Assembly: GCA_963669155.1 (NCBI GenBank)
Contig: OZ022576.1
Span: 36,054,297 to 36,118,296 of the forward strand
DNA length: 64,000 nucleotides
Origin: Arbacia lixula
Taxonomy: Eukaryota; Echinodermata; Echinoidea; Arbacioida; Arbaciidae
Direction of reading: 5' to 3'
Shown in pieces: positions 33,367 through 60,104 of the stretch. A program made the position numbers and the translations under genes. Position 1 is the stretch's first letter; every line of letters begins with the position of its first letter. The notes under the pieces are model-generated. The model was not told the DNA's origin. It saw only the letters and a program-made list of their open reading frames with translations, and searched no databases.

Positions 33367-33534
33367 ATGGAGTCTTCCACTAGAAGTCTCTGGTTTAAAT
33401 TGTGCGTGATTTGGGTCGCCTGCTTGTTCTTTTATTCGAGCGGAATTGAAGCCTCGTCAAAGCGCGGTCTGTCTCGGAGACAAGATAGATGGGTGGCGAT
33501 AGCTGAACATCAGCGGAAACGACCCATGACTTCG
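33367..33534 (+). CDS. ITIH-like exon 1 (signal peptide, propeptide)
   Basis: Residues 1-56. Leader core LCVIWVACLFFYSSGIEA, then basic SSKRGLSRRQDR and EHQRKR. The ATG is the first in frame with the leader; donor GTAAAT. Confidence 0.8.
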
Positions 33535-34337
33535 GTAAATATATTTCATCTATTTCTCCGGTTTGGTAGGAAACTGTTCAAAGTCTATTTCTAAATATAT
33601 AAATACTATACTATACTATTACTCATTCTGGATACAAGGATTTCGCACACTTGTTTATAAGAGTATGTAAATGCAAAGTTATTGTGTTGCTGGTATGTTT
33701 GTTGATTTTAGGAAGAATTATGTAATATGATAAATGCAGCGTAACGGTAGCATAGATACACATAGGTCTGCACGATCAACAAGTAAATCAAATAAATCAG
33801 TTATTATACATGAAGTTTGTCTCGCTATGATAACTTTCTTTTATTTGCTTACCTTGTGGCTTGGTTCTCATTACAAACTTCGAAGTTTGTCTGTTCACAC
33901 CTCCATCAGTTCTCCATAAAATGTTCTATTATGTCTCCTCCTCCTCTTCTTCTCGTACGTCCTCAGTCATGTCATGGTCGACATTCTATTTTGTTCATGA
34001 ACCGCATATATAAGATATTTTTTATATTAACACATATTTGGAAATATGCTCTCCACCCAGGAGTATAATAGTAGGAGGTGGACGATTATGTAAATGATCT
34101 TGGCCCAGCGCTGATATTGTGCTGGGGTGGAGATGGTGCACATATATCTGCGTGATATGTTCTTGTATCCAGCGACCAAGGCTCTTCTTGTAGCATCCAC
34201 CTAATTTAATCTCCGGACTACGATTGGAAAGACCCTCTACACCATATAAATATATATAGAAGGGTTTCATTTGACTTAATTCATTATCAGTGCAGTATAC
34301 AATAACGTAATGAAAGAAATATAAACGTCGTCAATAA

Positions 34338-34385
<48 letters not shown>

Positions 34386-35580
34386 CAAAATCGTAGTCAC
34401 GTAGTGAAGCCTACATCATGCATTTACCTGAACAATTCTTCATACATTATTCATATAACATTAATGTACTTGGTTTATAAGAAGAAATACAACATATGTA
34501 TTGTATTTTTATATAATTTTGAACACATGCTCTTACATTATTTGATGCAATGGTATTACACTGCATTGCTTTATACAGAACAGCAGTAAAACATGGTAAA
34601 TAGGGGCGCGATTTGAACTACTTAAGTTGACTGGAAGGCTACTTTGGTCCTAGGAATGGCAAAGAACTACGTCAAGTTGTATGAAAAAAAAATACGGTTA
34701 AGAATGTGATCGGTAGGACTCTTCAAATGAAATATGTCTTAATCAGTACAATAAAGAAAACTATAACACCCGAAATAGCTGAGAATGAACAATAATGGGT
34801 CGTGAGCAATTCTTTGTAATCAGGTGATAGATTTAACACGCAAGAAACCTCGAAATGTTGCACCCCCTGCAACTCGGAGATATGATAGTCGCCAGGCATA
34901 TAAATCCCATATATAACACTTTCTCAAGCACATGCTTCTGTAAGAATAAACTACAACCAGGCTCGCTTGCTAACGCATGTGCACATGGTTCACGGTGTAT
35001 ACGTGGTAGTCTTTCAAATTCAGACCCACCGGTGGAAAGAAAGGTTTGTGCCTGAAAATGGGAGACGTTAATTTGTGGCGGGTGTTTAGGTGGGTGGCTC
35101 AATAGAGCCGGTGTGTTATTCTTGCCACCCTCGCCAAACGATAGCCGACAAGTCAAAAGCCCTGGTTGCCACGACCGGTCTAAAAATGGTCCAGCGGAAT
35201 CTAGAAGAGTCTAGTGGAGCGGGGCGAGAACAAAGCCCGACACCCCCATCGCCCCGACCGGCATGCCCGGGGGCGTGGGAAGGAGCAAACCACTCGCCGC
35301 CAGCCCAAAGACGATCTGTCACCGCCACCCCACCAGCAAAGACACAAGTTCAATGTCAGCCACTAGTAGATGGTCGTTGAGGATTTCAAAATACACGCAA
35401 CACTGTAGAAATATGCCACAAATATAATGTCTACCGCCATTTATATGAAATAACACAGGCCTAAGGTTATAATGGCGATGACACATATTATATGACACAA
35501 ACATTTTAAAAATAATTGACATGTGGATGTATTTGTTGTTGTTGTGTTGTTATTATTTTGGGTGAGGGGTGTGTTTGTTT

Positions 35581-35614
<34 letters not shown>

Positions 35615-38600
35615 CAGTCTGTTTGTGTGTGTGGAGGGGCGGGGGCAGGTATCACATTCATAATTTTGTTTTGATATAACATAATCATGAAAATATATAA
35701 TGACATACTACTTACGTTCTATCTTATCAACACAAGGAAACATTTCCATTGTTAGGATAACCATCATATTAATCCCTACACAACTTCCACTTGGCATACT
35801 CTCCGGAATTGAAGTGTTGTCATAGAGGTGTGAGGTTGAAAAGATTGTGAAATAGGGGTGAAATACTCTACTTAACATCTAACGAAGCATAGCTGCTGTA
35901 CTGGTCTCGCCTCCGTTAGTACAATCGCTCGGATTATCGGAAGCCATTCGGATAAATATTTATACTGACGGAGATTAAGTAAATCTGATCAATGTCAAGT
36001 CAAGTAAACTGAAAGAATTGCATAAGATGCAGCATGTGGAGCAAATATTTTTTGAGTAAGACGTTGAAAGAAGATCGTGATCCAACGTGAGTGAGAAACA
36101 GTAGTGTTCATTAATGTTTGATGGAACACTCTGGCAATATGTCCCCAAAAGACATACCTTTAAAAATCTCCCACATGTACTGAATCTGAAGCAGATTTAA
36201 TCGTGAGTCATCCATTTGGTAAAAACAAAACAAAAATCAACAATTACCAATGTGATGATGTGCACGTTTAAGGTGTAATATAAACACAACAAAAATGTAA
36301 GTCCCCCCTAAGGAAAATAAGATAACTTTTGATCAAAGAGTTTTTAGGCAAAATCATTTGGCAGGATTGTTTCTTAACTTATTGACTAACTTATGCGTGA
36401 AAATCACATTAATCTAAATAGTTATGCATGAGTGGGCAAATTTTAAAGGCAAAAAATGTTACTTTTCAAAAGTCACAAGGGTAATTTTTGGATTCTGTCA
36501 TGTGAATTTTTGATTAATTCCATTTCTGGAGCATAATTTATGTAATTTCATTGTTCATCATCCATCTATCGATGCAATTAGACCTATCCAGATACTTAAC
36601 CCATTGTTCTGGTTGAGTGAGCATCGTTTAACAAATACTCATCCCTCTTGAGTTTAAAACTTTAAAAAAAAATTGTTCTGGTTGAGTGAGCATCGTTTAA
36701 CAAATACTCATCCCTCTTGAGTTTAAAACTTTTAAAACCCATTTATTTTGGTGAAAAAATAAAACTCTGGATATTTTGACAAAGATGTAACATGGCATGT
36801 TATGTAAACATAAGAAGTCAAAAGAAGCCAAAATATATTTTTAAAACGGCATAAACAATTACGCTTGTGACTTTTGAAAAGTGAAATTTTTGCCTTTAAA
36901 ATTTTCCCACTCATGCATGACTGATTGGATTAATGTGATTTTCACACAGAAGTTAGTCAATAAGTTAAGGAACAATCCTGCTAAAATATTTTGCCTAAAA
37001 CCTTTTCGATAAAAATTTATGCTTTTTTCCTTGGGGGGGGGGGGGGGAGACTTACTTTTTTGTTGTGTTTAGATGCGGTTTTAATGTAAATGTTTATTTT
37101 ATATTTGCTATGATCATGGAGAACATGCCAGCAAGATGGTTTGAGTTTCTTTTGTCTTATTCCCTGCCGATTTCCATTATGATTGGAATGACCCTTGTTG
37201 TTGTTTACCTTTGTTGAAGTTTGTTTTATACCAGAGGTACTTACAAGCCTCGTACCGTACGTTAGGTCTTGATCCTCTCTTTGACTATCTCAAGGCATAA
37301 CATCATGTTTATTGTGATTGAAAGGCTTTTCGTTTGCTCCCCGCCCTAACCATCATCTGCTGCCGCCATGCAGCCATTTTACTCCATATTTCAGTAAGAC
37401 TACACTACTTATCCGATCATTCGTGTGTTTTTTTTTTCTATACAGCGTGATTTGTTGCATCGATTCAAGAGGCAAAACCTGCAAGTGGTAAGTCGAGCAG
37501 ACAAACTTTAAACCACCCCTCTACCTAGTATGTCTAATACAATTTTGAAGCAAAGAAAAATAGCACCTTTTTTGATAATTATTGTCCAATAACCACGTTT
37601 CGGGGAGACCCACTACCATGACTACCGAATATGCCAAATTCTCTTTAAAGCTCTCAAAATCTACGAGAACCGACTAATGCCGGTGACGACATGTTAATAA
37701 CCTTCTTTATCCGGTTCATGTTTCGGTCACTAAGACACTCAGACAATAACACAAATGACTTTCTATGGGAAATAAAAACGAATGAACTAGCTTATAGAAA
37801 TGTCTGCAATGTCACTGTGAACTTGAGGATCAGCATAGACACAAAAGTCAGAGTCGATCAGCCTACTACGAAGTTCACCAAAACCACATGTGCACCCTTC
37901 CTCCCACAACACACAATGGGCTTCGAAGCAATCAATAGCCATGAATGACAGTGGTTTAAGGAAAAAAATCACTTCAATTCAATCATGTTTTATATTTTTT
38001 CTCTCAAAAGCCACACAAACGTATACATAACAAAAGAAAAATGTGTGGGAACGAAACATCAAAGTAATTGTTTGTCGGTGTATCGTTTGAATGTGAGTGT
38101 ATAAACCTGTTTGTTCATGTGAATAATAACAACACGCAGATTAGTCCAAGGGCCTAACGGTACAGACCCAGCCAGGTTCCCTTAACTCTTTAAAGGCCAG
38201 ACAAACTCCTACCCTATAGGTTATGTGTGTATTGTAAGATGAATGATTGACACAGACATGACGGAAGAAATGAAATCACGAAGAGGAACGAATGGAAATA
38301 AAGAGAAAAACAAAGAAGGGGTAGTTATCACATGAAAATATTATTAGGTGGTAAAAAAAGAGACTCTACAAACCTGTTGATTTTTTTAAAAATACATAAT
38401 CGGTCAATTAAATGGTGTAATAAAAAAGAGAAGCGAGAAAAAAAGTTAGAACTCGAGTTAAAAGAAAACGACACCCCCCCACTAACCCTACCCCCCCCCC
38501 CCTGCTACCCCCCCCCCCCCTATTCCTTCCTTCCTTCCTTCCTCATCGCACTTGCCCAGACCCCCGTGCCTCCGGAGATCGTCCGGTTCCACGTCGAGAC

Positions 38601-41600
38601 CCGCATCGCGGTCCGGTTCGCCAGCACCGTCATCCGTGCCTACATCCGCAACCCGGCCGCAGTCGCCCAGAATGCCTCCTTCGACTTGCTTCTACCACTC
38701 AAGTCTTACATCTCCGACTTCCACATGTGAGCTTCAGATCCATATCTAAATATGCTATATCATGTCGGTTGAGTGACACATTGCACAGTCCACATCTTAT
38801 AAACCCGAAATTTGAATTACTTCAATGAATTTGATTCATGCGTCATGGAGATGAAGTGATTTATCACAAAGAAGCAAGATTAATTAATGAACCCCGATGT
38901 ATTGTTAATGCATGATTCATCAAAAAAGTGATACACGACATATCTGTCGCCAAAATGCATAAAACTTCATGACATGAATTTCCAAACTTCCTTATCAGTA
39001 AATTTGCAATTTTGGCAGAAAGCGCGTGTGAGCGTGCTATATGATTTTCATGAATTTTACATCTGAATAATGTTCCTCCAAAAAACAAATAGAGAGAGAG
39101 ATAGCAAGGTACGAATTTTTGGTTGATATAACCATATATAAGTAGATACAAACGTCATTCAACTTCTAGTAATTGTTAATACATATTATGCATTTATGTG
39201 CCTCTTTACTTGTTATTAGGAACGTCGATGGGGTGCGATACCAGGGCTACGCTATCGATCGATGTTTGGTGAGCGATTTATCGCAACCGTCTGGTGTGTC
39301 TATCTCCAGCATCGAAAAGCTGGAATACACGACTGGGTGCGTCCACTTTTCACTCTTTTCTGTCTAATCTTGATTTGAGTGCATCTGCCGTTTTTTGATT
39401 TGAGTAATATGCACATGTCTATCTATTTATCCATTTTTTATTTGAGTAATATGCACATATTTATCTATCTATCAAATTTTGTTTTGAATAATATGCACGT
39501 ATCTATCTATTATATATATTTTGATTTGAGTAATATGCACATATCTATTGGGCGGTCTTTTGGCGTGTATAACAGGAGTTACCCCTTTGTGTTCAAGACA
39601 AACTGCTGCTCTATGGGATTAGTGTAAAAAATATAAACATGTGGTATGTAAAGATTCAATCCCTGTAAATGATTGTTGAAGTAAAATGTTCTGTGTTGAC
39701 AGCTGAGAGTGTTATCATTTGATATATCGGGTATGCCAAGTGTAATATCAAACCTCAAAGATCTTCATAAAATAGAAGTTAAATTTAGATGAAAAGATCT
39801 TATCACCACGTTTATACATAATTGTCTCATTATTTTTTATTTTTTATTTGTGTTGTGGAGCGGATTTTATGATGGTACTGATGAGAATATCATTGGAATA
39901 ATGAAACAAACTAGATGTTGATATTGCTGGTATTTAGTTATCAACATCATTGGTATGTGAAAATCATTTTTATCTCGTATAACGAAAAAAAACATTTTTA
40001 CAGGCAAAAGTCAATCCACCCTGTATTAAGTAAAACTTAACATGTTTCTTCATTTCCAAAACGCAGAGGGCAGCAAACTAGAAACCTGTTCACCGTGTCT
40101 GTGGACGTGATCCCTCGAGGTAGCGTGCAAATCATGATCCAATACCAGGAGCTCCTAGAGCGACAGGGAGGCTGGTACACGCAGCGCATCAGCGTCAGGC
40201 CTGGCCAGGTAACCAGGGTAACAGCGGGGAAATAGGATGATAACTAGGAGGAGATATGCTCAAATTACCACAATAGTATTTTATTTGTATTTGTATCTAT
40301 CAACGACAATATGGCATTTTTTGAGACATATTGCACTGCTCTCCCTAAACTTCGATCAACGCTAATGCTCTTATGAGATGAAATGCATATTGTTAAGACG
40401 TAGAAAGAACAAATATCAGACGGTTAAGTTTATATTTCTTTACTCTCCTCTCTTTTTGTTACTCTTTCACGTTCTATGTCTCTCTCCGTCTCTCTTTCTC
40501 CGTCTATCTCTCTCTCCAAACCCCTTTCCTCCTCATTAAATCCTCACCAAATCTCAATCTCTTCCTTCTCGACCTCTCTCTCCAAAGAGTGTGTATGATT
40601 ACCGGATCTTCGCAGCCGTTACGGAACCTCAGGGTATCGTTCGATCGGAGTCTGGTATCGACACACGCTCCTACACCGAGTCTCTCTCGTCCATGCACTC
40701 CAACAGCATGGAAGGCCTCGCCCGGTCAAGTAAGTCAAAATAACTAGGTCTCCTCTTCCTTATCATTTCATTAGTGTAGCCCATTTCCACGTCTCCTTAA
40801 ATCATATGTACATTCCGAGAAAAACTAGGTGAAAAGGTATCGATCCCACATGAGAGAATAATGTAGAAATTATTGGCAATTTGTGTGTAATTTGTTCATG
40901 GTTTGCCAATTAACCATGAAATCTAAACAGATATACCCACCATGAACAATTAGTGGACTGAATGATACCTAATCGGGCATATACGTATACAAGGTGCAGT
41001 GACACTTACCGTATGACATTTAACTCAACCCACTATGTTTAAAAGTTTGTATAGGTGAAAATAATTGCTGGCATAAACGTTTGCATCGTGCGAAGTTCAT
41101 GAATCTCATATTGAGAACTAAGGATTCTCTACAATGTTTATGAAGTGAACACGTGGACTAACCCCCCCCCCCCCCCCCTCTTTCTAAAGCTGCGAGCAGT
41201 ACGAGAGGCAAGGTCTACGACCTGGGAAGCCAGCTGCGATCGATCGGGACGACGAAGCGTCAGATCGACTACCGTCCGAACCGGCGGCAGCAGGAGGACT
41301 ACTCGAACCGGAACAGCCAGTCCGGCATCTACGGCGACTTCATCATCAGATACGACATCGCACATCCAGCCGGGGTCGGAGAAGTTCAGGTGGGGACACG
41401 TTCATCTTTAGCCAAGGTTGTCATGCTTTGAGTTTGATCAGGTCTCACACTCTTGGACAAGGGAGTAGTCTGGACACTGGCCGATGACAAACAGATTCGC
41501 CAAAAGGCCATTTACGAGAGGGAGCTTAAATCGAAACTTCGATAATATCTTTTCAGAATACCACCCAAGGTATCATGTCAACACTAATTTTTCTCAACCG

Positions 41601-43189
41601 TCACATGGTACCTGTCTACTGGGTAGGAAATAGTCCTGCTAGGTTCTGGATTAGGTTCTAACAATGTATTTGGATGTTTGGCTAAATGCAGTGTAATAAT
41701 CGATTGCTTTGGCCGGTATGCCTGCAGGCAAGATTGGCAATCAGTATTTAATTTGAGGGGACTTGTAAGAAGAAGGTTCCTGGTTGAATTCATCAAATTG
41801 TTAGGCATGGGAAGTGTAACCAACAAATAATTGATTAATAGTAGATTTGTGGTGTGATATACCAGACGACTGTTCTCCTGACTACTCTTCAGGTCTGTAT
41901 GTACATGTCTCAAGAAAAACCGACATTATGGAACTACAATAGGAGCCAGGGCAGAGGAGTCAGTATCCGGTATTCTCTAGGGGAACTATGTAATTGTGCT
42001 TCATAATCATCTTCATCCCGTCCTTTCGACCAATGCTTGATTGACAGACTGAGGGCCCAAACTTCATCCATCGATTCGCGCCCATCAACTTCGGGGTCGT
42101 CAACAAGCAAGTGGTGTTCGTCCTCGACTTCAGCGCCTCCATGTACGGCAACAAGATCCGGCAGACCAAAGAAGCGATGTACACCATTCTTGACGAGATG
42201 GGTGAAAGGGATCGCTTTAATATCTTGCCCTTCTCTGATGACGTCTACAGAGACTGGCGGCCGGGCAGGATGCTGGATGCGAACCCGTATAACGTTCGTG
42301 ATGCCAAGAACTACATCAGGCACTTCAATATACAGAGAGGTGATATTGCAACTCTAAGACTAAGATTTATAATAGCGCAATTTGATATAACGTATAAACA
42401 TACAAGAGCGATTCTGCATGCATATAATATCGTTTTCAAGATTTGTGGTCATTTGGCAAGAATGATGTACAAACACATACAGCACTAAGAATGAACACTG
42501 CAATGAAAAATGTCAGAGTATGATACAATGACAAGAACTACATTATTCAATTGGTTAAGGACAGCGTGATGTATTCTATAGTATATGTTAGAAGGTTTCA
42601 TACGATCATGTATCACTTGAAAGAAGTTTTTAGTCTTTTTTTTTATTTTTGCCGACGTCGTTTTCATCGTCTCGGCGCCAATAAGAAGAACGCTCCATTT
42701 TATTTTCAGTGATGTATACGTTTTGACTAGAAGTACATTACTTCTCCTGTCACCTCGATTGTTATCGGAACCTTATTTGCAGTTTCTTAATGTTTCATGT
42801 CATAGTCACTTGTGATAACGAATTCATCGTGTTGCCTCTTCTCCCCCCCCCCCCTCATCCCCTCAGGCACCAACCTGAACGACGCCCTGATCGAAGGCCT
42901 GAACCTACTGGAGACGACGGGGTCAATGAACTCGACGTTCGAGAACCCCATGGTGTGCATCCTCTTCGTGCTGACTGACGGCAAGCCCTCGGAGGGAGTG
43001 ACCAGCATGTCGGCCATCGAGCGCAACGTCCGTAACGCGAACAATGACCGGTGCTCGCTGGTCACGCTCGGCTTCGGCAAGCTCGTCAACTACAACTTCC
43101 TCGTCAGGCTGGCACTGCAGAACCGGGGCATGGCCAGGAGGATCTACGAGGACTCGTCGGCGGCTGGGCAACTCCGCGGTGAGAGAATG

Positions 43190-43266
<77 letters not shown>

Positions 43267-49200: not shown

Positions 49201-52200
49201 GCCCTCTACACACTGGGATTCGGCCGCCTCGCCGACTTCGACTTGCTAGTCAAGCTGGCCTACGAGAACGACGGCATCGCGAGGATGATCTACGAGGACG
49301 CGAGCGCCGCAGACCAGCTGCGGGATTTTTATCTGGAGCTTTATCGCCCTCTACTGTTCGATGTGTCCATGGAGTGAGTACAGTTTATGTGCTGGGTATC
49401 GTTTGCTGTAAAGTGCCTCTCTTCCATGTTAGGTATGATAGTGGTCTGTGAAGAGCGCCCACTTTCCGAAATTGTATTTCTCTTTTACAAAAAAGGGTCG
49501 AAACTTATGCACGAGGTACATGCCTACAACCGTTTCAATTTAAAATCCTGATCGTCTTTGAAAACAACAATAAATCATTGTGCCCACGATTTGGGTTAGA
49601 TGTAAATAATGGAAAATTATTAAATCACTGACGGCATACCAATTATTACGTCCCATTAGTGTCCACTAATCCTTGCCGATCATGACTCAAAATAATATAT
49701 TCGTTGAAATGAACAAAAACAAATCCAACTCCAGTAATGGTGACAAATCAGTTCTCTCAAAAATCACCCTTTGCCATATGTGTCATTGTAAGATATTACA
49801 CACAGATCCCATTAACAAGCAGTTTATCTAGAACACAGAGGATTAAGAATCACAGTCGAAGAGAATAACCACCTCTGAGTGTTGATTGCAGCTACCCTGG
49901 CGACGTAGCCAACCCGGAGACCCTGACGGAGCGGAGATTCCCGGTGTACTTCGACGGGTCTGAGCTGGTGGTGGCAGGCCGGCTGTACGATAACCCTCCA
50001 TCAGACATCCTGAGGGGTGTCATCGACTCCACTTCTACGGACGGAGAGTCGCAGAAGAGGTGGAACGCAGACATACGAGTGAGCGATAAGGACACTGTGG
50101 CGGTTAACATTATTCAATCTTTAGAGGTTCTCTTTCAGAGGTCCTTGATTCAAGCGATGAAAGGGAATGGAGTTTGAATCAAGTTAGCTCTGAGTCGTGT
50201 TCTTGTTTTCAGATATTCCTTGTCTATTCGAATGTCTTTCATTGAATGATTAGATATTAATAAGTGTAAACTATATTTTCCAGAAAATAATTGGTTACAT
50301 TGTAATTATTAAGATAAGTTATTATCTCGCTCCAACAACATGCAGAAAATCTCTTCTTCTTTTTTAAGTAAGACTAAATTGCTTTATAATGTGAATCCAG
50401 CGGACTTCACCGGAGTTGTCGTATCGGCGCACCGTACCGAACGTGGTGCAGAAGATCTGGGTCATGAGACGCCTGGAAGATTTGATTCGGCAGTACGGCC
50501 AGAGTACGGATCCGAACCAGCGCAACGCCATTGCAGAACGAATCATCACGCTGGCCAGACAGCACAACCTGGTCACACCACTGACCCCTCTAGCCCTGAC
50601 AGATCCCAGGACCGGAGAAGTGCTGGACGGAGGAGACATGGAAGGACTCCCGCTTCCAGGTTACAGCATGGCGAACAGTCCCAGGGATCTCCTCAGGGAA
50701 TCGATAGGTAACATTGACGAGGTTGATTGTTACGGTTGCTTGTCGGTGATACCAATGTAACTTGTTTGTTTGTTTGGTCTATTTTAACCAATCCTATTAA
50801 AAAAAAAATCAACATTTGACAATTTTTTACTTTATATTTTATTCATTTCTATACGATGATAAGCATGGAATTTATCTGTTGTGTTCATGAAAACATACAT
50901 ACGTCCATAAGATCGAGTAGCAGACTTTACTTCTCATGATTTTTTTTTATATGTTATACTTATATTAACAACCAGAGTCCTGGAACACAGCAATTTAGTA
51001 TTGGGTATGTCGCTGTTTATCGATTTCGGGCCACCTTCGTATCAACGAAACATCCCTTAGGTCAATCAATAAATCGTTATGTCAGATGTTCTGATTTGTA
51101 AAGATCCTTCAGCTTTTAATTTGTCTATATTCCTGCTAAAGGTTCCGTTGGTCCTTCCACCGCCCCAGTCAGGCTGCAAGATGCTCCTCTGGCAATGGAG
51201 AATGATGTGAGTCGGAAGGCTACACTGAAGTTTAAATTTCTATATCCGTATAGTCAAGTATAAGTAATATTTCTCATGTCTTATCATTGCTAAGTCATAT
51301 ACGGTTGATATGATTTTCCACGGTAGAAAATAAATGAAAGAAATACAGCATGACTAAACAAAATATTAAATTTCTTCCGAATGAAATGATTGGAATTTTA
51401 TCTGATTCCTTTCATTTGACTTGTAGTAACAGCTGCTGGGATGTTCTGCTACAAAATGATATTGTTCTTCCTCAGGCATAACTAGTATCCTTTCAATATA
51501 ATGCGTGTTAATCTGCTAAAAAAAACTTTTCGAAGACGTCTTTGAAGGTCTCGATCATTTTTCCCGATATTGGAATTTTGCCAATTTAAAGTTGCCTCTC
51601 GTTTTCCCCTTCATCATCAATAGTGATGAGAAGCTATTTTATGTTATCATCCTTGAGTTCCTTCTGCTTTCCTGGCGTAGGAGTACATCAACACCGTGCT
51701 CTTCGATGTCAGCTCCGTGATCGTCCTGAGATACGCCATCACGACCGTGGAGGTGGAGATGCAGAATGAGGGACGGAGGTCGGGATACGCCGTCTTCAAA
51801 CAGAAACTCCCAGAAGATGCCTTCATCTCAAATTTAACCATGTAAGTCATGGGACATGCTGTACATATGTTTCCAGCTATTGTAACTTTTGAGTATCTAC
51901 TATAGCAACAGCAGTAAAACTGAAACCTATTGGCTGTTACCATGGTAGTTCATTAACAGTTAATTACAATAATTGAAAAGATATCTGCAACATGCTCCAG
52001 AATATAGATTCTCTTTGGCATTAAGTCACTCAGAATCGCCACTTAATTACTTGAGAGAGTTTAGAATTCCACTCCGCGAAATGTGATAAATGCAGAGGTC
52101 CAAACTATGATGTATATTGTGCTACGTAACTTGGCTAGTGCATTTTTGTCGATAGCACTGTGAATGGACGTACTTACACGAGTGAGGTGAGCGACCCTCA

Positions 52201-55200
52201 GGACTCGGCTGGGAGGGGTCTGGGAGACTTGGAGATCGGCCGCAGTGGAGGCATCCTGTCACCGCTGTAAGTTTCCTTAATTCTAACCTCTTCAATGTTG
52301 CCTAGATATGTCATATAAGATACTCAATTCATTTGTTCTCGCTTTATGTACGATCTATAAAAAAATTACAAGAATAAACAGACATATCGATTTAAAAAAT
52401 ATGCTTTACAGTTATTCATGAACTATAATTCAATGAATATCCGCTGATATAAGTGAGCTTCAAAAATCTTGGATCTAGCTTCGATATGTTAATCATGCAA
52501 AGAATGTTAGCAGATATAAATGTTCGTGCTTTTCTACGCAAAAGGGGTGATCTTGAGAACAACCTGCTCGTCATAGCGGTTCCCGTTGAACCAGGAGAGA
52601 GGGCGCACTTTACGCTGACGTACGAAATGATGCTTCCAAGACGGCTGGGACTTTATGAACAGAAAATTGGTGTATTCCCAGAACAGGTTTGTGATAAAAA
52701 TCTTAAGCCATTCTAGCGTTTAACGGGCATATACTGTACTGGGAAGACAAAAGGCCTTCAAATGGTGATCGTGAGCAAACTTTTTACCAATGGTTCTAAA
52801 TTCATGTTTGTCCATTTTAGAACCTTGCTGAATTTTATTTGCCCTCAAATGATCCACATGTGGAGAGATTAGTGATTTAATCACAGATCCTCCAAATGTT
52901 CGGCCCGAACAATTTGAGGATTTGTGATTTAATTACTAATTTTTCCAAATGTGGATCATATGAGGGCAAATAACCTTCAGTGAGGCTCTAAAATGAACAA
53001 AACATAAATTTAAGACCATTGGCAAGAAGATTGCTCACGATCACCATTTAAAAGCTTTTTTGTCTTTCCAGTACAGTATATGCCCTTTAACGACAGTTGA
53101 AAATATAATTTACTTGTAGTAGTCCTATGAGATGGTCCTGTATCATTTTATAGAATTTAGAATTGCCGTCAAAATAAAATTAAAGGAGAATAACTGTAAT
53201 GTTATCATATAAAGTGGCTCATATAGAAATCAAATTCACCCACGTTACTGTTAACGTCGAGTTACTGTTTGAGATAATATACACTATATCAATCCACTCC
53301 TTTAGAAAGCTTACAATATCATAATTAGTTTGTTATCGTCTGAAGGTGGTTGATGTGATGAGGCTGAACACGGTGGTCATCGAACCGCAGGGCATTGCCC
53401 GTCTCGACGCCTCCCTCCTCGACCAGACCGACCCGTCATCGCCGATTCCGCTGACCGGTAACATCCACCGTCGCGGCAACAATCGCAGGGAGGTTCACTA
53501 CTCGCCTCGAGCACGTGAGCAGATGGGCATCTCGTCCAATGGGATCATGGCAGACTACATCGTGCAGTATGACGTCACGCACGACGAAGGTGCTGGCAGT
53601 ATTGAGGTGTGTCTCACTCGTTAGAGCGATATGGAGGGTTAGCCTACTCATTAGTATGACTGGCTTATATGGTTTATTTATGATAACTTTGCTCTTCCAT
53701 GGATATGTTCTATTAGTACTTTCTCCTGTTTCACCAATAAATGCCTTTGAGGGTTCGTACACTGCTGTGGGATATCGTTTGTTAATGTATTTAAGACATT
53801 TGATGTTGTTCTCCTGTAATTTAGCTGATACAATAAAATATATGATCCATAGGCCTATACTACCCTTTTTTTTTATTAAAGGAGCAGTAAGTAACAAATC
53901 TCTCAAATTTGAGTTATTTATGTTTTTTTTTTTTTAGATTTGCTTGCTTCCTACGAACGAACAAATATCTGGCAAAAAAATATTAATCTTGCCATAACAT
54001 GTATATTTCATATACATTCTTTCAGAGAACAATTAAGAGATCACTTTAGAGAACAATACAGAGAATAAATGTAAATACCAGCCAATCGATTCTGTGCATT
54101 AAAAAAAAACAATGCTTGATCCACGCCGCAGGTACTGAACGACTACTTCGTCCAGTACTTTTCTCCATCCGGCCTCTCCGTGCTCCGCAAGAACGTCGTC
54201 TTCGTCATCGACATCAGCGGCTCGATGTCGGGTACGAAGCTGTCTCAGGTCAAGGACGCCCTTTCGACTATCCTAGACGACATGCCCGAGACGGATAAGT
54301 TTAATATCTTGCCCTTCTCAGATGACGTCCACTTCCTGGATAGTTCCGGGATGCTTTACTCTACCAGAGAGAATGTCCGGAGAGCCAAGCGGTTTGTCCA
54401 AGGGCTACAAGAGATGGATAGTAAGTCACAGGGAATGTAAATTTAAAAAGAGAATCATGACCCCCAGCAAAACGGTGGTAATGTGTTCCAATACTAACAT
54501 TGCTTCATCCTTAAACCATATGAACGGGTTAGGCCATTTCCTGACCTACTTTTATCTGACCTAGATTTTCTGACCTAGTTTTTTTGCCATTCACTCAGTA
54601 CGGCCTCTGTTATTGGCTACTGTGCTAATGAATATTCAAGACTATGGTATGGTTTGTCGAACATTCGCGCCGGCGCGCCCAAAGAGGCGGCCAGGAGGCG
54701 CAATTTTTTCGAACATTCGCGCAGGCGCGCCCAAAGAGGCGGCCAGGAGGCGCAATTTTTTTTTACACGCTAGCTCATAGACGCCAGAGCTTTTCACAGC
54801 TGAGAGAGAAATCCTTGCTCTCTGCAATCGGCCACAGCCTGCGAGAGCACGCTCATGCCGATATCAGCTGTTCCTTTGTACCATTGTATGTGGGTAATGA
54901 GTTGATATAAGGACACTAGAAAACCTATTACTGTGCACAAATGCCATGTTGTGATAAAAAGTTGAGTAAATAGATATGTGTTTGTGTTATAATTATTTCA
55001 TGTTTGCTAGGTTTTATTAGACTATTTATTATTTTTTTATCTGTCCCTCCCGACATGATGCTCTAAATCCCCTAGAACAAAATGGAATCTCCCGTCTCTT
55101 TTTCCCCAAATCTCGCTAGAGAAAAAAATATTGGAGTCATCGACTGTTTGATAGGGGTGCATAATAAATTTCTACCAAAAATATTCCTTATTCAATCATT

Positions 55201-58200
55201 CAATAACATTTTCATGAGATGATGTATTCTTCAATAATACAACAAGGATAAACAAATTCACTTTTGTCTTATTGTCCAACAAAAATCCAGTGTTTTTTAC
55301 ATTATATTTTCTTTCTGAAAGCACCGTCCCCTTTTTCTGTAGTGGAGCAGTCCGGCGCTGGCAATTCCCGCGTGGAATAGCGCGCCTCCAGCTCACCAGC
55401 TCCTGGCGATGGCCGCCTCTTTGGCCGGCGCGACGTTCGACAAGCCATACCATAGTCTTGAATATTCATTAGTACAGTAGCCAATAACAGAGGCCGTCTC
55501 ATGAAAACTGCCTCGTGTACAAAATGAATGGCAAAAAAAACTAGGTCAGAAAATCTAGGTCAGATAAAAGTAGGTCAGGAAATGGCCTAACCCCATATGA
55601 ACTCAATACCGTGCGAAACCCGGGGCGAAACCATTCCTATAATTTTAAAATGAACGTTGTTTTCTGTTAAATGTGTGCTTGGATTCAACTACTATTAAGT
55701 ACATATTGACTCTGCATAAAGAACCAGTATGAAAGAAAATCTTTCACTCATTATGAATCCTTACGGTAATCGTTACTTTTAGGGCAAGTCAGACAACTCC
55801 TCATAGATTCATACTGCTCAGCTAACGCGATGGCAATGGTGGAATATAATACAACACTCACGTGTTGCTTCCTCGACTTGAGTCCATATGAACACGTGGG
55901 TATTGCTAAACGTTCTCTGCAGATACCAACCTCCACAAGGCGATCATCTCCGGCGTCAAGATGCTCCGCAGTGAGAGCGAAACGCAGCGCGCCGACGAGG
56001 AGATCGTCTCCATGCTCATCGTCTTAACCGACGGAAACCCGAACCACGGTGAGATCGACAAGGCCATCATAGAGCGAAATGTCCACGAGGCAATCGGCGG
56101 GGACTTTTCGCTGTTCTGCATCGGCTTCGGCAGTGATGCGGACTACCCGTTTCTCATGCGTTTGTCGTTTCAGGTAAACTTGACTTGGCCGCCCCATTAT
56201 TAGCAATAACAACAATATAGATCCTTTAGCGCCATTAATAACATATTTTCATATGATTTGTTGACGGTTTAGGATCTATGAACAATCGTTTCTGTTTTCA
56301 ATTCTAGCTGTGCGAACGTTGTTATTAAAATTATTTTTAGTTAATTTGTGGAGGATGTGGAAATAGAAGACGATAATTTATGTTGGATTTGGCATTCATA
56401 CATGAGTTTTGATTCGTACAAACATTCAAATAATCTCAAATGATATAGACAAAATCTTAATTATGATAATCATGTTTCCTATATTCCTACCTCCCGCAGA
56501 ATCACGGCATCGCGCGACGTATTCCAGAACGTGCCGATGCCGGGGAGCTCCTGGAAAATTTCTATCACGAGGTGGCCACGCCCTTGCTGCGTGATATAGA
56601 GTTCCGCTACTCACGGGGTATCGAACCCAACTCACTGAGCGAGCGCTCCTTCTCCAACTACTTCAATGGGTCTGAGCTCGTGGTGGTCGGCAAGCTCCTG
56701 CCCAATCTACCTTACGATGCGCTCAACTCGTATGTGTACGCCAGGACAGCCAGTGATGATGTGACGCTGCGAGGGCGTGGGGATCTGCTGGTACGGATAA
56801 TGTGATAGGGCCTAGGCAAAATGCGATTTTTTGTTTAAATGTGGAAAGATTGTTTCAATCATATCGGGAACAAATCGTGCGATATAAAATATGCCACAAC
56901 AAAAGTAAGTAATGAACATGATGAAATTTGGGAGCATGCCAAGAGAGACGTGCTTGTTGACCGCACACGGGAAAGAACGCGAATTATACAACAATGTAAC
57001 ACAATAATTCCTCATTCTTTCTTGCATTCCGTGATATTTGTAGGTTCCATCTCTTGATCTTCTGGATGAGGACGTACCTCAGGATATCATTGAGAGAATC
57101 TGGGCCTATCATATCATCCAGACTCTGAAGAGACAACAATCTTTGAGCGAGCAAAGCCCGGAGTACAACATGATTGGAGACAGCGAGATTAAAGATAAAT
57201 CCGTTCAATACAGGTTCAAAATAATCAATGATATATTTAAAGACATCTAATCAATATGTGTCATCTACCAAATCTAAATTTGAATCGCCCATGAACATAA
57301 AACATGAACATATATATATGTAGGCACTTTTGACATTGTGCAAGGAACTAGACCACGTTCCGCACCAGACAAAAGCAGAATACTTGAAAAATTGTTTATA
57401 ATCAATAACCATAGTGACGATTCTTTTAAAAAGAATGATTTGTCAAGAGGATACCTATCTTTATCATATCTAAATTCATATCGTCGTGTGTATCCACTCC
57501 CTGAGATCGCGTCAGCATTACATAAACGCATTTTCAAACTTCTGAAAATGGCGTTATCGAAAAAGAAAAATATGTGTCATATTGTTAAAAAGACGATTCC
57601 TCCAGATATTTAGTTTACATGCTGAGTATTTATACAGTCAGAAATGTCTGATCACCTTGGAGATAAACATAACTGAATGTATTTGACTAACGATATCTTG
57701 GTCAGATTCTTCAACCCATCGACCGCCCTGTTGATTCGCCGAGAGGAGGGTGGTTCCGCCCAGGTCAGCCCATTCGCTATGAGAGTCATCAACTCGCCAC
57801 TCCCCAAGACTGCTCGGCTGTCTCTGTCCAAGAACCTCACCGTGGTGCCACCCGCCCCTTCCCCTATACCAACGCCTCTACCGGCAGGTGGGTCTCCTGC
57901 CTCAAGGGACCTGCATGGATTATTTTGATGTATACAGTTTGATGTTAGAGATAGATTATGAACAAATTATTTTACATATATCTTTGTATGGTTTTAGATA
58001 AAAAGATGAACGACCGCTGTGCAGAAAGAGAATTTCTATCTATGATATGAAATGTACACAGAGTATATGTCGGAAGAGATTGAACATTAGATATATGAAC
58101 ATAAATTATATGAGCATTTGGTGGCATTTGACATTACACGGTAAGCCAGATTGTTTATTGTAAGGTTTCTTTGATAACAAAAAATGCAGTTAAGACATGT

Positions 58201-60104
58201 TGCAAAAACACAATTCCTGTGCAGAAAGATAATTTATGTATTTTGTAAGTAAAGAGTGGTCGTGGGCTCAATCATTGTCAAGCCATTCATACTGGAAACT
58301 AAGAGAGGCTTAGTGTAAGTGGAATGACGCCCAAACGCAAAACATGTTGATGCATTTTGTCGATACTATAATTATTCCTGTTTATTTTTGTTATTTTCCA
58401 GGGTTTACTATCGCCGTGCCTAGAGTGGAAATCACTGTCTGTCTTGATGAGGACCCACAAAACCATGACGTCATGCGTCTCCTCGAGGACCAGGCCCAGG
58501 GTAAGAATGTTTCGTCAATGATTCGAGGACGTTTACAATATTTTTCACTTTTGACATACATTTTTTAATATATTCTGGTGACAAACATCTCCACTGCGTT
58601 GCATTTATAAATAAACTGCGTCTCTTTTGTAATACAATAATGCCAAGCTACTCTAAATTTAGATGAGGACCTGGAAATATTCAGATGGCTTTGTTATAGG
58701 TGTAGAGTTCTGATAGAGGTAGAAAAAGAATTCTCAAATGAACAAGTATGTGGTGCATGTTACATGACCAATGTTGTTATCTCTCGGGTACAGGTTTCCA
58801 TAAATCTGTTCTGCGAAATACTGTGCATCGAAATCTCAGTATGTCAGTAAGCGTATTATATAGAATCAATCATCAAGGTGAAATAGCGATACAAGACATT
58901 TGTTCATATGTAAAGCAATGACAATCGATACGTTTGTCTTCCAGGCATCTTCGTTAACGGGCGGATCGTAGGCGACACCGTACCCGATCGCTTCAGCGAA
59001 GCCGACCGCACTTTTATCGGCGAGATCCTCCTCATCCTCAACCGGCCGCAATCATCTAGTCATCGCGTCCGCTTCAGCTCCGCGGGCGTAGCCGTCGACT
59101 CAGGCCGCCCCGCCCGATGGGGCCTGCCCAACACGTATGCCTTCGGCTCGAATCGGCTAGAGGTCACTGCATCGAAGGCTATCGTCACCCTGTCGGACGG
59201 GACAGCCTTTGGGGTGACTATCGACAGACTCGGTGAGAACGTGAACGGAGTAAGACCAAACGCATTCACGTTCAATGTCCTCTACAACGCCGGCCTCTCC
59301 TCATCAGTCAATGGAATCATTGGTGAGGAAATAAGATATTAATAAGTTGTGGTCCATTCATGCATTTCTGCACAAGAGTAATATAGGTACATATAAAGAG
59401 CAAAAAGCAGCAGTTCGTCTGGTGCTCACAAGGGCTAAACGATGTAATGTTACAATTATACAAATGTAATTCTGTAACATTATGCAATTGTTGTTTTCAT
59501 CAAAAGTGCATCAGTGTTCTGTGTTTTTATTGCACTTCTTGCAGTTCAGTTAATGTTAGAAATGTTCTGAATTCCGTCATTCAGGTCACCTCAAACATTC
59601 GGTATTGAACTTATAACTTTGTATCTTCAGGCATGTTATGCACTAATTTTAAAATGAGCTATAACCATTTTAAAACATGTATAAATTTTAAATAGTTCAA
59701 GGAATTGGTGTGTGTAGTTGGAGAAGAACAAAATGAAAAAAATACATGTAAAAATTGACTGACTTTTTACAAAAAAAAAAAACAATCATGGGTCATTCAA
59801 CGTCTCCCTTTTCTCCCCTCATCTACCCGTGTTGCCTCTCTCCTCATTCGCTCCCTCAGGACGATTCCAGCACGCTAGAATGATGCTGGGCCAGCCCACT
59901 TCGCAGCTGTCAGCGGCGGTTGGAGACGGCTGCGGCCTGCCACTCTCCCGGAGTAGAGCAGTCAGCGTCTCGCTCACCTGGCGTACCAACGGCCTGATCG
60001 ACTCCTCCACCTGCGATGAGATGGGAGGCGATCTCCTCAGTAACAACCTCAATGGTCTCCAATACACGGACTATAGACGAGCCAGCCTGTATACCACTAG
60101 CTAA
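33367..60104 (+). CDS. ITIH-like protein with three tandem VIT-vWA modules
   Basis: Secreted protein of about 2267 residues assembled from 33 phase-consistent exons (6804 nt with stop). Order: signal peptide (1-30), basic propeptide with RKR and RFKR sites (to 70), then module 1 (VIT 71-212, vWA from about 348, tail to 777), module 2 (VIT 778-917, vWA from about 1027, tail to 1408), module 3 (VIT 1409-1546, vWA from about 1655, tail to 2027), and one ITI heavy-chain C-terminal domain (2028-2267). All three vWA domains keep the MIDAS metal site (Asp 353, 1032 and 1660 begin the DxSxS motifs). Family knowledge: ITIH proteins bind or modify hyaluronan matrix, with about 900 residues and one module. 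It is one gene: modules 2 and 3 lack a start and signal peptide, modules 1 and 2 lack a stop and C-terminal domain, and the joining exons are in phase. The Asp-Pro cleavage motif before the C-terminal domain is absent. Exons are markedly GC-richer than introns. Introns not listed separately show nothing recognisable. Confidence 0.88.
34340..34382. repeat. (TA)n microsatellite
   Basis: About 20 TA units in intron 1 of the ITIH-like gene. Confidence 0.95.
34830..35390. other. GC-rich patch in ITIH-like intron 1, unidentified
   Basis: Abrupt GC-rich stretch in AT-rich intron with short open frames on both strands (e.g. 35090-35380 plus). The composition suggests an inserted element or old exon; no motif is recognised. 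Confidence 0.35.
35583..35614. repeat. (GT)n microsatellite
   Basis: About 12 GT units in intron 1. Confidence 0.9.
36281..37071. mobile_element. Foldback (MITE-like) element in ITIH-like intron 1
   Basis: Ends TAAACACAACAAAAA...GTAAGTC and its complement, with arms of over 200 bp that pair imperfectly, around a centre holding a 73-bp direct duplication (about 36600-36735, GTTCTGGTTGAGTGAGCATC). A G run lies near the right end. No clear target duplication; no coding capacity. Confidence 0.7.
37446..37487 (+). CDS. ITIH-like exon 2 (propeptide, RFKR site)
   Basis: Residues 57-70: RDLLHRFKRQNLQV, phase 0-0, good acceptor (TATACAG) and donor (GTAAGT). RFKR followed by Gln fits a convertase site releasing the mature N-terminus just before VIT1. 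Confidence 0.75.
38474..38540. repeat. Poly-C runs and TTCC repeat before exon 3
   Basis: Three C runs, the last two about 10 long, then (TTCC)n, leading directly to the exon 3 acceptor and acting as its pyrimidine tract. Confidence 0.8.
38560..38726 (+). CDS. ITIH-like exon 3 (VIT1 start)
   Basis: Residues 71-126. VETRIAVRFASTVIRAYIRN then FDLLLPLKSYISDFHM, the VIT pattern of strand pairs ending in SDFxM. Confidence 0.9.
39220..39336 (+). CDS. ITIH-like exon 4 (VIT1 middle)
   Basis: Residues 126-165. NVDGVRYQGYAIDR matches the equivalent exons of modules 2 and 3. A shorter donor (GTGAGC at 39269) is also present but would break phase with exon 5; the end at 39336 keeps phase and gives the length expected from the other modules. 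Confidence 0.72.
39375..39555. repeat. Minisatellite, about four units of 45-52 bp
   Basis: Unit TTTTGATTTGAGTAATATGC followed by ACATATCTATCTAT, in intron 4. Confidence 0.85.
40067..40208 (+). CDS. ITIH-like exon 5 (VIT1 end)
   Basis: Residues 166-212. LFTVSVDVIPRGSVQIMIQY then EQ-like RISVRPGQ; 142 nt, the same length as its counterparts at 46560 and 52545. Confidence 0.87.
40588..40729 (+). CDS. ITIH-like exon 6 (VIT1-vWA1 linker, first part)
   Basis: Residues 213-260: SVYDYRIFAAVTEPQGIVR. In modules 2 and 3 this and the next exon are one exon. Confidence 0.82.
41162..41178. repeat. Poly-C pyrimidine tract before exon 7
   Basis: Seventeen consecutive C ending 11 bp before the exon 7 acceptor. 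Confidence 0.9.
41190..41389 (+). CDS. ITIH-like exon 7 (VIT1-vWA1 linker, second part)
   Basis: Residues 260-326. Ends GIYGDFIIRYDIAHPAGVGE, the conserved strand just before vWA (compare GDVVIKYDVQH and ADYIVQYDVTH in modules 2 and 3). Confidence 0.87.
42048..42339 (+). CDS. ITIH-like exon 8 (vWA1 first half, MIDAS)
   Basis: Residues 327-424. VVFVLDFSASMYGNKIRQTK carries the DxSxS metal motif (Asp 353), then DRFNILPFSDDV. 292 nt, identical in length to the module 2 exon. Confidence 0.92.
42843..42854. repeat. Poly-C tract before exon 9
   Basis: C run serving as the pyrimidine tract of the acceptor at 42866. Confidence 0.85.
42867..43178 (+). CDS. ITIH-like exon 9 (vWA1 second half)
   Basis: Residues 424-528. 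GTNLNDAL supplies the MIDAS Thr and FVLTDGKPSEG the second Asp; then CSLVTLGFGKLVNYNFL. The intron follows GQLR, unlike in modules 2 and 3. Confidence 0.9.
43190..43262. repeat. (TA)n-(GA)n microsatellite
   Basis: Directly after the exon 9 donor, continuing as GA-rich sequence to about 43445. Confidence 0.92.
43546..43778 (+). CDS. ITIH-like exon 10 (post-vWA1)
   Basis: Residues 528-605. VYNEVATPLLFNIVVEYL then FPNYFNGSELAVTGQL, the conserved ITIH segment after vWA. Confidence 0.9.
44328..44351 (+). CDS. ITIH-like exon 11 (24-nt microexon)
   Basis: Residues 606-613: NTRLSMLQ, phase 0-0, acceptor AAATAAAG, donor GTGAGT. Its inclusion is optional for frame, so it could be alternatively spliced or not an exon. 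Confidence 0.5.
44735..45226 (+). CDS. ITIH-like exon 12 (module 1 tail and Thr-rich linker)
   Basis: Residues 614-777. Helical region (LRELFDRYRLADNP, then AR-rich LSRRYNLLTPLMNMVL) typical of ITIH after vWA. It is followed by a Thr/Pro-rich, mucin-like linker (about residues 723-768) ending PSHRRL. The donor that keeps phase with exon 13 is GTATAT after CTG. Confidence 0.85.
45607..45770 (+). CDS. ITIH-like exon 13 (VIT2 start)
   Basis: Residues 778-832. TTVLAEYENIDDRNHPVEFS then PSGAYISNFYV; no signal peptide precedes it, so the module continues the same protein. Confidence 0.88.
46095..46208 (+). CDS. ITIH-like exon 14 (VIT2 middle)
   Basis: Residues 832-870. DVDGERYRGIVQNIRDGRWQ; three nt shorter than exon 4. 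Confidence 0.85.
46560..46701 (+). CDS. ITIH-like exon 15 (VIT2 end)
   Basis: Residues 870-917. FVMRVPDVRPNSPVTFVLTY then YEQRINISPQQ, the canonical VIT ending. Confidence 0.9.
47308..47571 (+). CDS. ITIH-like exon 16 (VIT2-vWA2 linker)
   Basis: Residues 918-1005 in a single exon. Acceptor GGGTAG lacks a long pyrimidine tract; starting at LVDDFSIDVQ keeps frame and similarity. Confidence 0.82.
48328..48619 (+). CDS. ITIH-like exon 17 (vWA2 first half, MIDAS)
   Basis: Residues 1006-1103. IVFVIDVSASMYGPKLSQTK with Asp 1032 in the DxSxS motif; DFFNIITFSDGV follows. Confidence 0.92.
49016..49373 (+). CDS. ITIH-like exon 18 (vWA2 second half)
   Basis: Residues 1103-1223. ETNLNEAIL, ILLTDGIPSVG, HALYTLGFGRLADFDLL, then DFYLELYRPLLFDVSM. 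The intron falls later than in modules 1 and 3. Confidence 0.9.
49892..50078 (+). CDS. ITIH-like exon 19 (post-vWA2)
   Basis: Residues 1223-1284. FPVYFDGSELVVAGRL is the same block as FPNYFNGSEL in module 1. Confidence 0.9.
50401..50707 (+). CDS. ITIH-like exon 20 (module 2 helical tail)
   Basis: Residues 1285-1387. QKIWVMRRLEDLIRQYGQST then AERIITLARQHNLVTPLTPL, the ITIH helical region. Confidence 0.87.
51142..51206 (+). CDS. ITIH-like exon 21 (module 2-3 linker)
   Basis: Residues 1387-1408, SVGPSTAPVRLQDAPLAMEND. A short linker without the Thr array of linker 1; 65 nt is what phase requires. Confidence 0.72.
51681..51841 (+). CDS. ITIH-like exon 22 (VIT3 start)
   Basis: Residues 1409-1462. 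ITTVEVEMQNEGRRSGYAVF then DAFISNLTI; three nt shorter than exon 13. Confidence 0.88.
52156..52266 (+). CDS. ITIH-like exon 23 (VIT3 middle)
   Basis: Residues 1462-1499. TVNGRTYTSEVSDPQ, then a Gly-rich stretch; GTAAGT donor. Confidence 0.83.
52545..52686 (+). CDS. ITIH-like exon 24 (VIT3 end)
   Basis: Residues 1499-1546. NLLVIAVPVEPGERAHFTLT then YEQKIGVFPEQ; 142 nt, as in modules 1 and 2. Confidence 0.86.
52724..53086. mobile_element. TTAA-flanked foldback (MITE-like) element
   Basis: About 363 bp with terminal inverted repeats GGGCATATACTGTACTGGGA and a second internal palindrome around TTTGCCCTCAAATGATCCAC. TTAA at both borders suggests a piggyBac-type target preference. Intron 24; related copies at 30370 (broken) and 62549. 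Confidence 0.8.
53346..53606 (+). CDS. ITIH-like exon 25 (VIT3-vWA3 linker)
   Basis: Residues 1547-1633. VVDVMRLNTVVIEPQGIARL then SNGIMADYIVQYDVTHDEG; one exon, three nt shorter than exon 16. Confidence 0.87.
54132..54420 (+). CDS. ITIH-like exon 26 (vWA3 first half, MIDAS)
   Basis: Residues 1634-1730. VVFVIDISGSMSGTKLSQVK with Asp 1660; DKFNILPFSDDV follows. Confidence 0.92.
54526..55593. mobile_element. Non-autonomous DNA transposon with long inverted repeats and 9-bp target duplication
   Basis: Inverted repeats of about 170 bp begin GGGTTAGGCCATTTCCTGAC and end with the complement. CATATGAAC flanks both sides (54517-54525, 55594-55602). A 9-bp duplication with long arms is typical of Mutator-like elements. 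The interior holds a GC-rich tandem duplication (about 54656-54765) but no transposase. It makes up most of intron 26. Confidence 0.82.
55923..56173 (+). CDS. ITIH-like exon 27 (vWA3 middle)
   Basis: Residues 1730-1813. NTNLHKAII, LIVLTDGNPNHG, FSLFCIGFGSDADYPFL; the intron comes earlier than in the other modules, after LSFQ. Confidence 0.9.
56500..56790 (+). CDS. ITIH-like exon 28 (vWA3 end and following block)
   Basis: Residues 1814-1910, phase 0-0. NHGIARRIPERADAGELL, FYHEVATPLLRDIEF, then FSNYFNGSELVVVGKL. Confidence 0.9.
57044..57213 (+). CDS. ITIH-like exon 29 (module 3 helical tail)
   Basis: Residues 1911-1967. DIIERIWAYHIIQTLKRQQS matches the vertebrate ITIH pattern ERLWAYLTIxQLL. 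The donor is GTTCAA, weak, but the join to exon 30 is clean. Confidence 0.8.
57706..57887 (+). CDS. ITIH-like exon 30
   Basis: Residues 1967-2028. FFNPSTALLIRREEGGSAQV, then a Pro-rich end (PPAPSPIPTPLPAG) just before the C-terminal domain. Confidence 0.82.
58402..58500 (+). CDS. ITIH-like exon 31 (C-terminal domain start; missing cleavage motif)
   Basis: Residues 2028-2061. GFTIAVPRVEITVCLDED aligns with the vertebrate DPHFIIHVP...LCFN block, but the Asp-Pro-His is Ala-Gly-Gly. Confidence 0.85.
58945..59322 (+). CDS. ITIH-like exon 32 (ITI heavy-chain C-terminal domain)
   Basis: Residues 2061-2187. GIFVNGRIVGD matches GFSVNGQLIGN; the beta-rich remainder follows. Confidence 0.88.
59860..60104 (+). 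CDS. ITIH-like exon 33 (C-terminus and stop)
   Basis: Residues 2187-2267. SVSLTWRTNGLIDSSTCDEM then GLQYTDYRRASLYTTS and TAA; YTDY matches the vertebrate ending GAYTDYIV. Confidence 0.88.

Follow-up and report, generated by a model that had tools for sequence, protein, structure and literature searches.

A heavy-chain-like gene of Arbacia lixula with three tandem VIT-vWA modules and a single ITI_HC_C domain

Mammalian inter-alpha-inhibitor (ITIH) heavy chains stabilise matrices by becoming esterified to sugars, a process in which bikunin, TSG-6 and hyaluronan are involved. To our knowledge, the sugar-coupled heavy chains of the ITIH1-3 type carry one module per polypeptide. Their C-terminal Asp is made by cutting an Asp-Pro bond ahead of the ITI_HC_C domain, where the consensus reads DPHF. 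According to passages of PMC4661386, this Asp is ester-bonded to chondroitin sulfate and can, in mammals, be moved to hyaluronan. Human ITIH4 is described in part of PMC2268946 as being without the conserved cleavage site, which prevents a bond with bikunin, and excerpts of PMC10855846 state that it inhibits MASP-1 and MASP-2 after cleavage. Recombinant human ITIH1 (HC1) forms dimers via its MIDAS in the presence of Mg2+ or Mn2+, as related in sections of PMC7170535. In echinoderms, excerpts of the open-licence PMC literature name ITIH in the coelomic fluid and mesenchyme of sea cucumbers.

The DNA analysed here (the window) is a stretch of 64,000 nucleotides, and it carries an ITIH-like gene that resembles human ITIH1 in its VIT domain, its vWA domain with MIDAS, the C-terminal part, and an ITI_HC_C domain at the C end. 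Unlike ITIH1-3, which are esterified via a C-terminal Asp (passages of PMC4661386), it has three modules and is missing the Asp-Pro motif. Among solved structures, human ITIH4 is the one that each of the three modules matches best, and the heavy-chain cleavage site is absent there too (part of PMC2268946). It has one module, however, as opposed to the three of the window gene. The likeness to multi-vWA matrix proteins such as collagen VI lies in the multiple vWA domains in a string; collagen VI has no VIT domain or ITI_HC_C, and its architecture is a different one. Several vWA domains are arranged in it like beads on a string, according to excerpts of PMC3919171. In the portions of the open-licence PMC literature that came up, including PMC12119288, PMC9203982, PMC11925454, PMC10539598, PMC10381214 and PMC9630195, no description of a trimodular ITIH was found, and none of the papers among the matches listed for the whole words DPHFII or ITIH contains DPHFII. 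The trimodular architecture may already be present, unremarked, among predicted echinoderm proteins. Fold and chemistry are known; a variant heavy chain that is tripled and has lost the ester motif was not found in that literature.

A splice model was built independently of the original prediction. Strict thresholds skipped true exons, so they were loosened and the model was finished by hand. The gene runs on the plus strand from an ATG at 33367 to a TAA ending at 60104, and its 31 exons encode 2245 residues with no internal stops, the frame being kept at all 30 junctions. The features are collected in Table 1. Donors in the model have a median score of 2.05, against -3.4 across all 1525 GT dinucleotides, and acceptors a median of 1.5, against -2.5 across all 1454 AG. 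Two sites are weak: the donor at 57213, which follows exon 27 (55th percentile), and the exon 14 acceptor, located at 47308 (63rd percentile). The exon 10 donor, CTG/GTATAT, is only fair (88th percentile). For the join of exon 1 to exon 2, which spans 5 kb, the evidence consists of phase and splice score. The original prediction had given 33 exons, joined in phase, and about 2267 residues; the joining in phase was borne out, and the counts differ. Its reading of the locus as one gene with three complete VIT-vWA modules and one ITI_HC_C agrees with both the splice model and the Pfam matches, and gains further support from a second gene built to the same plan (see below). The single signal peptide that it had proposed is likewise consistent with the hydropathy profile, which peaks in exon 1.

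Table 1. Features of the trimodular gene in the window, and of its paralogue where so stated
Feature	Position	Strand	Remarks
Exon 1	33367..33534	+	Holds the start codon and a segment resembling a signal peptide, followed by a basic stretch; phase 0 out; donor TCG/GTAAATAT
Module 1 (aa 57-755, exons 2-10)	38560..45226	+	VIT, vWA, C-terminal part, Thr-rich spacer
vWA core of module 1 (exons 7-8)	42048..43178	+	MIDAS DFSAS ... TNL ... LTDG
Mucin-like spacer, rich in Thr and Pro, separating module 1 from module 2 (last part of exon 10)	45083..45226	+	About 47 residues
Module 2 (aa 756-1386, exons 11-19)	45607..51206	+	VIT, vWA, C-terminal part, short linker exon 19
vWA core of module 2 (exons 15-16)	48328..49373	+	MIDAS DVSAS ... 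TNL ... LTDG
Module 3 (aa 1387-2005, exons 20-28)	51681..57887	+	VIT, vWA, C-terminal part, Pro-rich tail
vWA core of module 3 (exons 24-25)	54132..56173	+	MIDAS DISGS ... TNL ... LTDG
Exon 29, boundary exon	58402..58500	+	LPA/GFTIAVPR where the single-module ITIH has DPHF; without Asp-Pro
C-terminal region (aa 2006-2245, exons 29-31)	58402..60104	+	Sole ITI_HC_C domain; TAA 60102-60104
Candidate polyadenylation signal AATAAA	60500..60505	+	3' of the stop codon
Poly-Ser run and Thr-rich repeat in module 1 of the paralogue	C1:1591405-1591697 and 1596847-1597827		Poly-Ser; Thr-rich; absent or short in the window gene

Several candidate exons were dropped. Small exons at 35.0-37.7 kb appeared in loosened runs, but exons 1 and 2 join in phase without them, and a coding-score scan between these two exons gave just three overlapping weak segments over both strands (13.9-14.9). 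Two extra exons near 41.9 kb, produced by one setting, were also left out; exons 6 and 7 join in phase without them, and a counterpart is absent from the paralogue model. The 1.5-kb intron between exons 24 and 25 contains an inverted repeat of 60 bases (54526-55593), its arms 100% complementary and separated by 948 bases, with further inverted and direct repeats inside. By its sequence this element looks like a recently inserted non-autonomous DNA transposon. Elsewhere in the window (about 3093-24653, minus strand) there are fragments of what is probably a plexin gene, oriented head to head relative to the ITIH-like one. Two of seven peptides scanned from that region match Plexin_cytopl, one above the cut-off (38.3 bits, 7029-7148) and one below it (22.9 bits, 3093-3320), and one of the seven has a weak TIG match.

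Each module has one Pfam VIT domain (41.5, 50.5 and 46.2 bits for modules 1, 2 and 3; cut-off 26.5) and one VWA domain (61.9, 67.9 and 78.0 bits; cut-off 23.8). The ITI_HC_C domain occurs once, at the C end (41.8 bits, cut-off 27; profile positions 2-134 of 189). When searched with phmmer against solved structures, module 2 aligned to human ITIH4 over residues 37-600 (E 1.2e-104), and module 3 together with the C-terminal region over 39-598 (E 4e-97); the match of module 1 was broken into two parts, 35-203 and 208-595 (E 1.8e-90). The corresponding alignments to HC1 (6fpy) cover residues 39-600 for module 2 and 56-601 for module 3, and two stretches for module 1, the best of them 212-621. Since the modules align across ITIH4, the repeated unit is, by sequence, a whole heavy chain and not just VIT plus vWA: heavy-chain sequence beyond these two domains is indicated in all three modules by alignments extending to ITIH4 residue 595-600. 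The C-terminal region used alone gave no matches to solved structures up to E 1. In module 1 the exon linking VIT and vWA is divided in two and carries an insert.

The MIDAS is defined by the motif DxSxS, a Thr and an Asp. Judged by motif, these residues are intact in all seven modules found at three loci (three ITIH loci were found in the genome, see below). Over 19-residue windows (Kyte-Doolittle) the hydropathy maximum of the predicted protein lies at the N terminus, in exon 1 (1.64, window beginning at residue 9). The next peak, at residue 1391 (1.54), is formed by the opening strands of VIT in module 3, and the other modules have homologous strands at the start of theirs. The Thr-rich spacer after module 1, in which Thr makes up 17 of the last 40 residues of exon 10, is probably O-glycosylated. 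Module 3 also contains an RGD triplet, which stands at residue 1884 of the predicted protein and is encoded by exon 26 near 56780, but this is probably not functional, as the paralogue reads QGN at that place.

Whether the three modules belong to one message bears directly on this architecture. The locus could instead consist of three tandem ITIH genes, or of one locus with several transcripts, modules 1, 2 and 3 being separate messages. The homology of the modules and their head-to-tail order would fit a tandem duplication of this kind, and there is an AATAAA at 45577, just 5' of the first module 2 exon, while a stop is reached at the third codon past the exon 10 donor. The AATAAA is unremarkable in itself, since 38 A[AT]TAAA motifs occur within the gene, but together with the stop it makes a short, module-1-only isoform possible on sequence grounds. 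Against separate messages, the intron between modules 1 and 2 is only 380 bases long, which would be a tight fit for two UTRs and a promoter. Module 2 is connected to module 3 via a 65-base linker exon with flanking introns of 434 and 474 bases. A crude scan for a separate signal-peptide exon before module 2 or 3 found none; its single match, on the module 2 side, belongs to exon 10 and is in frame there. Immediately 5' of the module 2 exon the open frame has 10 residues, and there is none 5' of the module 3 exon. There is also one ITI_HC_C per three modules in both trimodular copies, and the paralogue joins module to module in phase, with 27 of 29 introns matched. Separate messages are therefore improbable, and a single gene is the reading followed below.

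In the 607-Mb assembly (590 contigs; the window lies on contig C1), ITI_HC_C was found at three loci, all on C1: in the window, at 1613377 (plus strand) and at 37219725 (minus strand), these being three matches among six candidates scored. At 1.61, 36.11 and 37.22 Mb, the loci thus share one contig, and two of them are 1.1 Mb apart. A genome search with module 3 gave at least 32 matches (40 candidates scored), all within the three ITIH loci, and part of module 1 of the paralogue gave 19, of which 18 were at these loci and the remaining one was a weak match on C22 (E 6.3e-4). VIT alone also matched C10, C16 and two further places on C1 (four of ten matches), presumably VWA5A-type genes. On C590, comparison of COX1 with one mammalian chain placed both AAA codons on Asn and six of nine ATA codons on Ile (the others on Leu and Val), while the three AGA codons fell on Ser, Ala and Lys, none being a stop. 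This is in good agreement with the echinoderm mitochondrial code (table 9; AAA = Asn, ATA = Ile, AGA = Ser), but the call is not final because flatworm codes share part of these reassignments.

The locus at C1:1.588-1.615 Mb is a paralogue with modules 1, 2 and 3 in the same order, a Thr-rich spacer after module 1, a single ITI_HC_C, and a boundary without DPHF. When the two genes are aligned globally with exon 1 left out, they share 1279 identical residues among 2143 aligned. The paralogue matches 27 of the 29 introns of the window gene in the same phase and within 3 columns, 26 of them at the same column. One exception is the intron between modules 1 and 2, which lies inside the unalignable Thr-rich spacer and is of phase 0 in both genes; the other is a module 2 intron that the window gene has in addition. 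The spacer of the paralogue is far longer (about 180 residues, compared with about 47), with a long Thr-rich (PTTTTM) repeat, and a poly-Ser run is found in the exon linking VIT and vWA in module 1. Its C end is shorter than that of the window gene, and among the candidates listed for its first exon is a putative signal peptide. Two of its introns, after C1:1594728 and C1:1599989, are of the GC-AG type, where the window gene has GT-AG.

This second locus also bears on the suspicion that the trimodular design is an assembly artefact or a chance joining of unrelated exons, in favour of which there is nothing beyond the reliance on one assembly. An independent copy of the architecture at the paralogous locus makes chance or mis-assembly very unlikely, and a repeated or collapsed assembly cannot create the modules, since those of the window gene are just 33-34% identical to each other. 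We consider an artefact the least credible of all the explanations weighed here. Rates of change between the two genes (NG86) give dN 0.36 and dS 2.00 for module 1 (dN/dS about 0.18), dN 0.27 and dS 1.77 for module 2 (about 0.15), and dN 0.28 and dS 1.56 for module 3 (about 0.18). These ratios are rough because dS is near saturation, but they suggest that both trimodular genes have been kept under purifying selection since the duplication. The C-terminal region is less conserved, with 39% identity as against 58-65% in the modules, and a dN of 0.65 (dS not computable) as against 0.27-0.36; it is changing about twice as fast.

The third ITIH locus (C1:37.218-37.230 Mb, minus strand) holds a single-module gene, 31-34% identical to the window modules, with MIDAS kept and an ITI_HC_C of 67.5 bits. 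It shares the family, the boundary exon phases (1 to 1), the MIDAS and ITI_HC_C with the trimodular genes, but differs by having one module and DPHF. The motif is retained in the sequence ADSDPHFMVRLP, and the boundary exon starts with ADSDPHFMVRLPQ. At the equivalent exon the paralogue has SPDIA/GPLSNLISIPE, without DPHF. Scanning for DPxF, DxHF, DPH and PHF near the boundary of both trimodular genes found no match with Asp-Pro, and none at the boundary itself; the matches were a DIHF at 58553 of the window and one DFHF in an intron of the paralogue.

The loss of DPHF in both trimodular genes argues against the classical sugar-linked route. If the product were a classical inter-alpha-inhibitor heavy chain, merely longer, it would be cut before ITI_HC_C and its C-terminal Asp joined to chondroitin sulfate. 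The domains are identical in kind to those of such chains, and ITI_HC_C is retained at the C end. However, the motif is replaced in both trimodular genes and kept in the single-module gene of the same genome, the DIHF and DFHF matches are without Asp-Pro and off the boundary, and the C-terminal region is changing roughly twice as fast as the modules, so that a classical chain is highly improbable. Transfer to hyaluronan is an unlikely role as well, because hyaluronan synthases have not been found in echinoderms according to the part of a review that deals with them (PMC10381214).

The history of the modules was examined with a tree (9 rows, 568 columns) in which human ITIH1, human ITIH4 and the single-module gene were placed alongside all six modules of the two trimodular genes. 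Modules of the window gene and the paralogue pair by position (M1 with M1, M2 with M2 and M3 with M3, each 100/100), and the triplication is therefore older than the gene duplication. That it is old also follows from the low identity of the window modules, which is 33-34% among themselves and 31-34% when they are compared with the single-module gene. The six trimodular modules are separated from the other three rows with a support of 86/91, which is suggestive of their grouping together. The branching order of modules 1, 2 and 3 is not settled by this tree: M2+M3 received 48/13, a grouping of M1 with M2 had an AU p of 0.486, and one that placed M3 with human ITIH and the single-module gene had an AU p of 0.47.

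The trimodular architecture is well supported, and from it we infer secretion, a single transcript, metal binding, self-association and a role in the matrix or coelomic fluid. The reading we favour, and which we hold to be about as likely as not, is that of one gene for a secreted chain with three tandem ITIH modules, a mucin-like spacer and one ITI_HC_C, which would act in cation-dependent multivalent adhesion without sugar coupling. The original prediction had suggested a multivalent, metal-dependent cross-linker; the metal sites it called for appear intact by motif in all three modules, and the role itself, by analogy with HC1, is a reasonable proposal. In such a scheme each vWA would bind a divalent metal at its MIDAS, and the metal-loaded domain would engage an acidic residue on a partner. 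The partner might itself be a heavy-chain module, or else a protein of the matrix or one of complement-like type. With three heads per chain and a flexible glycosylated spacer between heads, the protein could bind with avidity and cross-link its partners even with neither chondroitin nor hyaluronan attached, and sugar coupling would not be needed. The module would have been tripled first and the gene duplicated later. An intact MIDAS is no proof of MIDAS-driven adhesion, since HC1 can dispense with it in binding vitronectin, fibronectin and TGF-beta latency peptides, as passages of PMC7170535 report.

The chief rival to multivalent adhesion takes the protein for an inhibitor or a regulator of complement, comparable to ITIH4 or HC1: either a three-headed protease trap, in which a cut module would hold the protease non-covalently as in ITIH4, or a regulator binding C3 as HC1 does. 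Both trimodular genes resemble ITIH4 in being without the heavy-chain cleavage site, ITIH4 is the best-scoring solved chain for each of the three modules, and HC1 uses its MIDAS to bind C3 (sections of PMC7170535). On the other hand, the spacer is Thr-rich and probably O-glycosylated, with no obvious bait, and no bait region was identified in the protein. The ranking of ITIH4 may simply reflect its slow change (branch length 0.51, compared with 1.01 for ITIH1). We regard this rival as possible but doubtful. Returning to multivalent adhesion, we put forward, more tentatively than that reading itself, a specific course of events: in a group for which an absence of hyaluronan synthases is reported, the valency of the heavy chain may have moved from sugar-ester assembly, where one glycosaminoglycan bears several heavy chains, to gene-encoded concatenation of three MIDAS heads in a polypeptide with a mucin-like stalk, with the cleavage/transfer motif lost and ITI_HC_C left free to drift, the product being a sugar-independent, cation-set adhesive or cross-linker of the echinoderm matrix or coelomic fluid.

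The fold and chemistry known for the family are unchanged by this finding. The presence of tripled copies without the motif alongside a motif-bearing copy in one genome offers a natural comparison of the module with and without sugar coupling. As a candidate, the gene could also underlie matrix or clotting behaviour that responds to cations in echinoderms, where a heavy chain may gain valency by stringing modules together, as opposed to hanging on sugar chains as it does elsewhere.
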